Positions 38,473 through 53,997 of a DNA stretch of 64,000 bases are shown piece after piece. The stretch covers positions 1-64,000 of the forward strand of contig CALVBU010000009.1 in the NCBI GenBank assembly GCA_944325875.1. Reading direction: 5' to 3'. The position numbers and the translations under genes were made by a program. Numbering within the stretch: the first letter of the stretch is position 1; each line of letters starts with the position of its first letter. The notes beneath the pieces were generated by a model. The model was not told the origin of the DNA. It saw only the letters and a program-made list of their open reading frames with translations, and did not search any database. Source of the stretch: Candidatus Gastranaerophilales bacterium. Its GTDB lineage: Bacteria > Cyanobacteriota > Vampirovibrionia > Gastranaerophilales > Gastranaerophilaceae.

Positions 38473-39258
38473 TCAATAAGTAGTAGTTACACCTGCAGAA
38501 ATTTTATTTACATAGTTTACAAGTGCTTTAAATACAAACGGATGCAGTTTTCCATCTTTCACATCTTTATAAATAATTGTCAGGGCTGTTTTTTCATCCA
38601 GAGCTTCTTTGTATGCTCTTTTTTCGGTCAAAGCCGAGTACTTATCGGCAATTGATACAATTTGCAAGTTTAAGTCTGCATTGAAATTTTTATCAGCAAA
38701 CGGATACCCTGTTTTTTTCGCATTCTGATGATGGTTTTTAACGATATTTAATGTTGTTTTATCAATATCGCTGTTTTTTAAAAGTTCATATCCTAAAATT
38801 GAATGTCTGTGCATGATTTCGGTTTCAAATGGATCTAATTTACCGTTTTTATTAAGGATTTCTTCAGGTATTAGAGCTTTACCTAAATCGTGTAAATATG
38901 CGCCATCAGATATGGCTTTTAAGTTAATTTTATTCTTTAATGAAAATGGTAGATTGTCGGCAATACCTTCTGCTATTCTTTTTGCGTCTGAAGCGTGATT
39001 ATTAAGCAGGTTATTTAGCTGTTCCATATTTAGTTTTACAGGGACGCCTACTTCATTAAGAATTTTGGAAATTTTTGGGTTTGTCTGTATTGCTTTTCTT
39101 AAATAAAACTCAGTTGTGTATCGGTTTGTTGAATTGGATTCAAATTTATCAGATGTAAGTTCTCCATTAAAACTTACATTTGATTTCGGATAATTAGTTC
39201 CTATTCGGTTTACGCTTACTCCGTTTTGAAACAGAGGTCTTAAAAATTCTATCGACAC
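38473..39258 (-). CDS. HD-GYP-type phosphohydrolase domain protein
   Basis: A metal-dependent phosphohydrolase domain. The HD pair is YLHDLGKALIPEEIL, followed by the HD-GYP features EIMHRHSILGYELL, KNHHQNAKKTGYP and LQIVSIADKYSALTEKRAY. These define enzymes that hydrolyse cyclic dinucleotides such as c-di-GMP. The N-terminal 70 residues lack a sensor domain and carry the motif NVSFNGE near residue 28. The start is a GTG at 39258 with GTGGAA upstream; no ATG precedes the core. No GGDEF gene is near. Confidence 0.82.
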   Translation of the reverse strand: MSIEFLRPLFQNGVSVNRIGTNYPKSNVSFNGELTSDKFESNSTNRYTTEFYLRKAIQTNPKISKILNEVGVPVKLNMEQLNNLLNNHASDAKRIAEGIADNLPFSLKNKINLKAISDGAYLHDLGKALIPEEILNKNGKLDPFETEIMHRHSILGYELLKNSDIDKTTLNIVKNHHQNAKKTGYPFADKNFNADLNLQIVSIADKYSALTEKRAYKEALDEKTALTIIYKDVKDGKLHPFVFKALVNYVNKISAGVTTTY

Positions 39259-39414
39259 TATTTTTCCACACTAAATTTTATAGACACACTACCTATATAT
39301 TTATATAAAGTTTTTTTATATAATTTAATTTACAGTTTATATAAAAATGTTAAGATAAATTTGCATATAAAAAATATATTCAGAATTAATCTTATCATTA
39401 ATTTAGGTGTTAAA

Positions 39415-53525: not shown

Positions 53526-53555
53526 AAAAGAAAAACCCTATCTTTCGATAGAGTT
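53526..53555 (-). terminator. terminator of element copy 1
   Basis: AACTCTATC, loop GAAA, GATAGGGTT and a T tract on the minus strand. The T tract is only on this side, which sets the direction. Confidence 0.7.
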
Positions 53556-53731
53556 TTGGAATTCTTTTTTGTAATTCCTCGTGTGTAGAAGGTTAGTGTG
53601 TAGTAGGTAGTGTAGTTAGTAAGTGTGTATTTTATGTCTCGTGTTTATTTAATCGATATTGCTTACATATTAATAAAGTATTTTGAAAGTATATAATTGC
53701 TATATCTTATTTATTTCGTTACATTTCTTAA
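53531..53731 (-). repeat. duplicated candidate small-RNA element, copy 1
   Basis: The gap between glnA and the mannosidase is 659 bases and holds two copies of a 200-bp sequence. From the minus strand, each copy begins with a TTAAG...TGTAAC box, then an AT-rich stretch, then a 60-base A/C/T-rich, nearly G-free region (CTACACAC, CTAACC, CCTAC), then a hairpin GGAATT / AATTCC, and ends with a terminator. No ORF of note runs through it. The body matches copy 2 over about 135 bases apart from one T. Confidence 0.75.
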
Positions 53732-53793
53732 TAGTATTGTTTGAATGCTTTATTTTATAAGGGTTTAAGAGTTGAGTTGCAATATGCACATAA

Positions 53794-53820
53794 TAAAAAA
53801 CCCTATCTTTCGATAGAGTT
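53794..53820 (-). terminator. terminator of element copy 2
   Basis: The same ACTCTATC-GAAA-GATAGGGT hairpin with six T downstream on the minus strand. Confidence 0.7.
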
Positions 53821-53995
53821 TGGAATTCTTTTTTGTAATTCCTCGTGTGTAGAAGGTTAGTGTGTAGTAGGTAGTGTAGTTAGTAAGTGTGTATTTTATG
53901 TCTCGTGTTTATTTAATCGATATTGCTTACATATAAATAAAGTATTTTGAGAATATATAATTGCTATATCTTATTTATTTCGTTACACTTCTTAA
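53796..53995 (-). repeat. duplicated candidate small-RNA element, copy 2
   Basis: About 97% identical to copy 1 and offset by 265 bases, with 64 unrelated bases between them. The few differences are in the upstream AT-rich part, not in the A/C-rich core or the terminator stem. It begins just past the mannosidase stop codon at 53998. Confidence 0.75.
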
Positions 53996-53997
53996 CA

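Follow-up and report, generated by a model that had tools for sequence, protein, structure and literature searches.

A tandem pair of candidate base-pairing small RNA genes conserved across a family of Gastranaerophilales, with complementarity to a sigma-factor 3'UTR

Background

The Gastranaerophilales are little-cultured gut relatives of the cyanobacteria. Tandem duplicated small RNAs (sRNAs) include PrrF1/PrrF2 and OmrA/OmrB, and sRNAs linked to sigma factors include MicL and RybB in E. coli and FoxI and FoxJ in Fusobacterium. In the literature on the Gastranaerophilales we found no sRNA described for the order. Here we analyse a duplicated element located upstream of glnA in a window of 64,000 nucleotides from a Gastranaerophilales genome, and we conclude that its two copies are almost certainly genes for a regulatory sRNA that has not been described before. 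The element resembles PrrF1/PrrF2 and OmrA/OmrB in that two adjacent and near-identical sRNA genes have the same seed, but it has no sequence relation to them (no Rfam match) and the hosts are different. As for MicL/RybB and FoxI/FoxJ, the model suggested below places the sRNA in an alternative-sigma circuit, whereas the link in this case is complementarity to the 3'UTR of the sigma mRNA.

Among known systems, Yfr1/Yfr10 of the cyanobacteria is the nearest functional parallel. Yfr1 is 54-69 nt in size and has two stem-loops around an unpaired stretch of 16-20 nt that contains ACUCCUCACAC (PMC2190773, PMC6778093). Like Yfr1/Yfr10, the element is near-universal in its lineage, has an unpaired A/C/U-rich core with an ultraconserved motif ahead of the terminator, has candidate partners complementary to this motif, and is accompanied by a second putative sRNA with a common core word. 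Unlike Yfr1, it is about 135 nt long, with an unpaired stretch of at least 40 nt, other seeds and no stable 5' stem-loop. A first-pass annotation of the window, made from the sequence alone, had described the core as Yfr1-like with a different sequence, which agrees with our comparison: the size differs and the Yfr1 undecamer ACUCCUCACAC had no match in the window at up to 1 mismatch. On sequence grounds, the element thus appears to be a new family of base-pairing sRNA, itself a known kind. Since it is found across the family and combines a strongly conserved seed with candidate targets and a promoter class, it would offer a testable entry into regulation in the Gastranaerophilales and a first means of approaching RNA-based gene control in these bacteria, and could be compared with Yfr1-type regulation in cyanobacteria.

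Anatomy of the duplicated element

Two direct copies on the minus strand, at about 53531-53730 and 53796-53997 and with a spacing of 264, were located with a repeat finder (reference of 191 nt, at 95%). The duplication proposed in the first-pass annotation was thereby recovered, although the identity of about 97% given there was slightly too high, since a blast comparison of copies A and B yielded 95% over 215 nt. As had also been noted, the differences are mostly located upstream of the core, and each copy is closed by the same minus-strand intrinsic terminator, CTCTATCGAAAGATAGGGTTTTT, of which 2 were found versus 0.2 expected in shuffles. The body previously described as G-poor contains an exact G-free stretch, TACTAACTACACTACCTACTACACACTAACCTTCTACACA, at 53582-53621 and 53846-53885, which is identical in the two copies and includes two or more seed words (ACACUACCUA and CACACUAACCUU). 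Only the two 3' hairpins, a short A+U one and the terminator, were paired in the centroid fold of the predicted RNA (z = -3.4), with the core unpaired and the 5' part A/U-rich and lacking a stable stem-loop. The features of the two copies are as follows.

53531-53665, minus strand: sRNA gene copy A, predicted to be about 135 nt with the 5' end placed from the promoter; covariance model match at 53530-53667
53796-53929, minus strand: sRNA gene copy B; covariance model match at 53795-53931
53666-53700, minus strand: putative promoter of copy A, GCAATT-N11-AAATACTTTATTAATATG; 22 matches in the window's own genome, 0 for the reversed control
53930-53964, minus strand: putative promoter of copy B, pattern search as for copy A
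53706-53723, minus strand: upstream TGTAAC box of copy A, conserved in an alignment of 21 copies
53970-53987, minus strand: upstream TGTAAC box of copy B, conserved in the same alignment
53622-53643, minus strand: 5' arm of copy A, CACGAGACATAAAATACACACT, complementary to a sigma-factor 3'UTR
53886-53907, minus strand: 5' arm of copy B, complementary to the sigma-factor 3'UTR
53582-53621, minus strand: G-free core of copy A, unpaired in the fold and nearly invariant in 18 aligned copies
53604-53613 and 53590-53600, minus strand: seeds ACACTACCTA and CACACTAACCT, respectively, in the core of copy A
53846-53885, minus strand: core of copy B, from the 18-copy alignment
53573-53582, minus strand: 3' arm of copy A, ACGAGGAATT, complementary to the adjacent bases of the sigma 3'UTR
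53837-53846, minus strand: 3' arm of copy B
53558-53578, minus strand: hairpin 1 of copy A, GGAATT..AATTCC, covariation in 5 of 6 pairs
53822-53842, minus strand: hairpin 1 of copy B, covariation
53531-53553, minus strand: intrinsic terminator of copy A, compensatory change in 10 of 10 pairs
53796-53818, minus strand: intrinsic terminator of copy B, shuffle test and covariation

Homologues differ by insertions and deletions of 1-2 bases within the core, so that no reading frame is kept, and a protein-coding function was ruled out for this reason.

Distribution and conservation

A DNA search identified the element in 12 of the 13 genomes of the genus, in one of them as a partial copy at the end of a contig, and most of the genomes with the element contained two copies, either in tandem or separated. 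The ACTACACTACCTACTACACACTAACCTTCT core was nearly invariant among 18 aligned copies from 11 genomes of the genus, and an alignment of 21 copies contained the near-invariant segments ATATAGCAATTATATA, AAAATACTTTAT, ATGTAA, ATTAAATAAACACGAGA, the core and GAGGAATT. A covariance model built from the 18 copies (R1) matched 309 of 383 genomes in the family, representing 37 of its 41 genera, mostly with 1-3 and at most 5 copies per genome. The search for the core in Gastranaerophilales genomes that the first-pass annotation had proposed therefore revealed conservation both in the genus and across the family. With a second covariance model built from 51 diverse members (R2), matches were obtained in 264 of 382 genomes of the class; among the matches listed, all were from the same family, and the other families in the listed class genomes yielded none. 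The Rfam comparison that had likewise been proposed yielded no known family in Rfam 15 at gathering or permissive thresholds, the best matches being far below the cut-offs.

Named records carrying the core were mostly gut or rumen MAGs of Gastranaerophilales or Melainabacteria, and no match to the element was found in viral contigs (IMG/VR) or plasmids. A mobile, MITE-like repeat was rejected given the two copies in the window's own genome, the maximum of five elsewhere, the conserved GH38/glnA neighbourhood and the absence from the viral contigs and plasmids searched.

Copies from distant genera have lost or altered the 5' arm and differ in how many CACACUAACCUwC words they contain, but they mostly retain the last of these words, GAGGAA and the terminator; the spacing of the core also differs between genera. 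Both hairpins covary across the family, with two-sided changes in 15 of 16 pairs and pairing in 97.5% of cells, a level reached by 0 of 500 shuffles. Since a terminator is expected to covary in this way in any transcribed unit, the covariation supports an RNA end rather than a particular function.

A recurrent promoter pattern

A standard sigma-70 scan yielded no minus-strand promoter at the element, and the promoter was therefore located by conservation instead, as a promoter-like block common to both copies. We searched for the pattern GCAATT-N11-AAATACTTTATWWATATG (AAATACTTTATNWATATG, AAATACTTTATATATATG) allowing for up to 3 mismatches, and obtained 22 sites in the own genome versus 0 for the pattern read backwards. 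Within the 0.86 Mb of the own genome covered, the sites outside the sRNA were mostly located 24-40 bases before start codons; many of the genes behind them are of unknown function and many had no Pfam match. The recurrence of the pattern and its distance to the starts place the predicted RNA 5' ends at about 53,665 and 53,929, corresponding to a length of about 135 nt, and the transcript should begin directly after ...TATATG. The promoter class GCAATT-N11-AAATACTTTATATATATG is possibly an alternative-sigma regulon.

Each copy is thus intergenic, with a promoter and terminator of its own and a conserved unpaired seed, as expected for a base-pairing sRNA, and shows at the level of sequence conserved complementarity to mRNAs encoded elsewhere. 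The recurrent promoter, the unpaired core that is near-invariant in the genus, the covarying terminator and the presence in 37 genera all support the duplicated sRNA that had been suggested in the first-pass annotation.

Candidate targets of the core

Complements of the core (AGGUAGUGUG together with partner words) occur in the 5'UTRs of three genes. One of these genes is located in the window and encodes a protein with an HD domain.

38473-39258, minus strand: predicted target gene, HD_5 domain protein of 261 aa (Pfam HD_5, 7e-17)
39284-39295, minus strand: predicted target word 1, TAGGTAGTGTGT, in the 5'UTR of the HD-domain gene and in most orthologues of the genus
39266-39275, minus strand: predicted target word 2, TTTAGTGTGG, near the start codon of the HD-domain gene
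39298-39332, minus strand: less exact match to the promoter class ahead of the HD-domain gene, with 4 mismatches to the sRNA pattern

The 5'UTR of the HD-domain gene reads ..TAGGTAGTGTGTctataaaaTTTAGTGTGGaaaaatAGTG, and among its orthologues in the genus GGTAGTGT is exact in 7 of 12, with GGTAGT in two more. Duplexes of these 5'UTRs with the sRNA had predicted energies of -21 to -32 kcal/mol, and in 9 of the 10 cases tested 0-9 of 200 shuffled UTRs were as good; in the tenth, from genome G006, 36 of 200 shuffles were as good and the start was probably misread. The second gene, beginning MFSPEFMKF, contains GATTAGGTAGTGTGAATTTAAAGGAGAATAAATG, with TAGGTAGTGTG exact before the SD in 7 genomes, and is located behind a GCAATT/TTTTATATATATA promoter. 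The third, beginning MSISTALLEV, has AAGGTAGTGT and AAGGTTA ahead of its start.

The pairing with AGG-type ribosome binding sites that had been proposed for the core in the first-pass annotation is refined by these genes: the predicted partners are the specific 5'UTR words AGGUAGUGUG and GGUUAGUGUG, present in a small number of conserved genes, and the genome-wide enrichment is modest. Compared with dinucleotide-shuffled cores in 812 start regions, the real core yielded 16 versus 8.9 matches of 9 nt (4/200) and 8 versus 2.5 matches of 10 nt (2/200), and coding sequences showed some excess too. Because the excess in start regions was modest and accompanied by an excess in coding sequences, only the conserved cases were accepted as targets, and since about 0.86 Mb of the own genome was covered the target lists are incomplete.

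The start of the class II ribonucleotide reductase (GGAGGUUAGUGUG, in most genomes of the genus) fits the seed and was rejected as target evidence, since this site covers the SD and in some species also coding sequence, which makes its conservation unspecific. The reductase-like gene in the own genome (C4:45736) starts GGAGGTTAGTGTGAAC, and in most genomes of the genus this start could pair with CACACUAACCU by complementarity that spans the SD and the start codon. A site at C4:3561 in the own genome with 15 perfect bases was also rejected, since it is the opposite strand of a second, likewise conserved, sRNA-like element. In genomes G008 and G012, a 3'UTR right behind the stop codon reads TAGGTAGTGTGTAAATATTAACTAAAGTGTGTG and contains two words complementary to the sRNA core.

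Complementarity to a sigma-factor 3'UTR

Outside the element, the strongest complementary site that blast identified in the own genome was the 3'UTR of a sigma-70 family gene. This gene contains Pfam regions 1.2, 2, 3 and 4, is group-2-like and is not the most conserved of the approximately four sigma genes per genome. In the genus genomes examined, the site is located between the stop codon and the terminator and is complementary to the 5' arm of the sRNA and then on into the 3' arm, so that the core would loop out if both arms were paired. The complementarity covers 23 nt with G-U pairs in the own genome and 26 nt without mismatches, in a different sequence, in G189. A change from GACATAA to GATATAA in the sRNA of G008, G012 and G005 is matched in the UTR by TTATGTC becoming TTATATC, and the corresponding sRNA/UTR pairs are GAGGAATC/GATTCCTC in G052 and GAGGAATTACT/AGTAATTCCTC in G038.

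When the sRNA and UTR of the same genome were paired, only 0-1 of 200 shuffled UTRs were as good in most genus-1 genomes and in several other genera. In g2, g7, g38 and more distant genera the own pairs did not beat shuffled UTRs, and the more distant genera have a weak site or none. Permutations in which genera were swapped yielded values of 0.006-0.22, depending on the representatives, and several changes are uncompensated, examples being T to C at one arm position and G006. Judging from these patterns of sequence change, RNA-RNA pairing between the sRNA and the sigma 3'UTR is likely within one clade of genera. If real, it would tie an sRNA directly to the tail of an mRNA, an unusual kind of link in which the two partly co-evolve.

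The complementarity also opens for the possibility that the RNA is real and has its main role with sigma, the 3'UTR or an RNA processed from it being a sponge and the 5'UTR matches minor. The rank of the sigma 3'UTR in the blast search, its much greater strength than that of shuffles, seen in genus 1 and in several further genera, and the two-arm site that leaves the core looped out are all in line with a sponge. However, the most conserved part of the sRNA is the core rather than the arms, the core persists in genera without a match in the sigma 3'UTR, and the 5'UTR sites are conserved in the genus. We consider a sponge as the main role to be rather unlikely.

A match between the start region of the sigma gene and the 5' arm (GTTTTATGTCTATG) was present in part of the genus only and was rejected. 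At C1:207730-207745 in the own genome, CTCGTGTTTATTTAAT provides 16 bases complementary to the 5' arm directly before an intrinsic terminator, and could belong to a further decoy RNA or 3'UTR partner. In G035, the sequence behind the same sigma gene contains ATTAAATAAACACGAGGATATTAAGAGAGAG in the sRNA-like sense and not as the complement.

Proposed mode of action

The two copies are probably tandem genes for a trans-acting base-pairing sRNA of about 135 nt with partners in 5'UTRs and in the sigma 3'UTR. Each copy would be transcribed leftwards from its own promoter of the special class and end at the intrinsic terminator. The core would pair with the 5'UTRs of a few mRNAs, mostly of the same promoter class, with the HD-domain, MFSPEFMKF and MSISTALLEV genes as putative partners, covering the mRNA 5' end and the bases before the start codon such that translation may be lowered or tuned. 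We assume repression, given that the start region or the 5' end would be covered by the pairing; activation by unfolding of the UTR could be an alternative. The arms flanking the core would pair with the 3'UTR of the sigma mRNA, with the core looped out, and the sigma mRNA would then either be regulated itself or be a decoy. The sRNA would be co-expressed with the small regulon on which it acts, and a sigma-factor mRNA would be its partner. A regex search of about 0.86 Mb of the own genome identified no RNA chaperone.

In a more speculative extension, which we put forward as possible though doubtful, the sRNA is the RNA arm of an alternative-sigma circuit. Sigma would read the promoter common to the sRNA and its targets, while the 3'UTR would clamp both arms around the looped-out seed core, so that the level of sigma mRNA sets the amount of free sRNA silencing the same regulon.

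Genomic context

It is very improbable that the element is conserved DNA, such as a protein-binding array or a structural repeat, and not an RNA gene. The repeated words and the upstream box common to both copies might be taken for binding sites, but the order of promoter, core, hairpin and terminator is strand-specific and consistent, the terminator stem stays paired through changes, the core spacing varies between genera, and the target UTRs match it as reverse complements, on a single defined mRNA strand.

In many genera the element occupies a conserved slot, with a GH38 family gene on one side and glnA on the other, and glnA was a conserved neighbour at 20 of the 45 sRNA loci checked. This neighbourhood, together with the location of glnA downstream on the same strand in the window, could suggest a leader or attenuator of glnA, which is the least credible of the readings since the sRNA is oriented away from glnA in 10 of the 20 genomes where both adjoin, glnA has a conserved promoter of its own (TTGACC-N17-TATTCT, of a housekeeping type unlike the sRNA promoter), a copy is located elsewhere in several genomes (G007, G010), and no Rfam leader or glutamine riboswitch matched. 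The opposite orientation and the separate promoter exclude a leader as the general role, as the first-pass annotation had held, while the link to nitrogen assimilation that it considered is unsupported apart from the conserved glnA neighbourhood.

The second conserved sRNA-like element in the own genome is located at about C4:3500-3610 on the plus strand (AACCATTTTCTTTATTTTCTCCTACACACTAACCTTTTACAAATTGAGATAAGCCGTC..terminator). It contains about 60 near-invariant bases in 9 genomes of the genus and has CTACACACTAACCTT in common with the sRNA reported here, a sharing of one word that may be compared with Yfr1/Yfr10. In the C1:197549 region, and in G001, a convergent 3'UTR contains the core word ACTACACTACCTAC in the sense orientation just before the terminator, and may give rise to a 3'UTR-derived RNA with the same seed.
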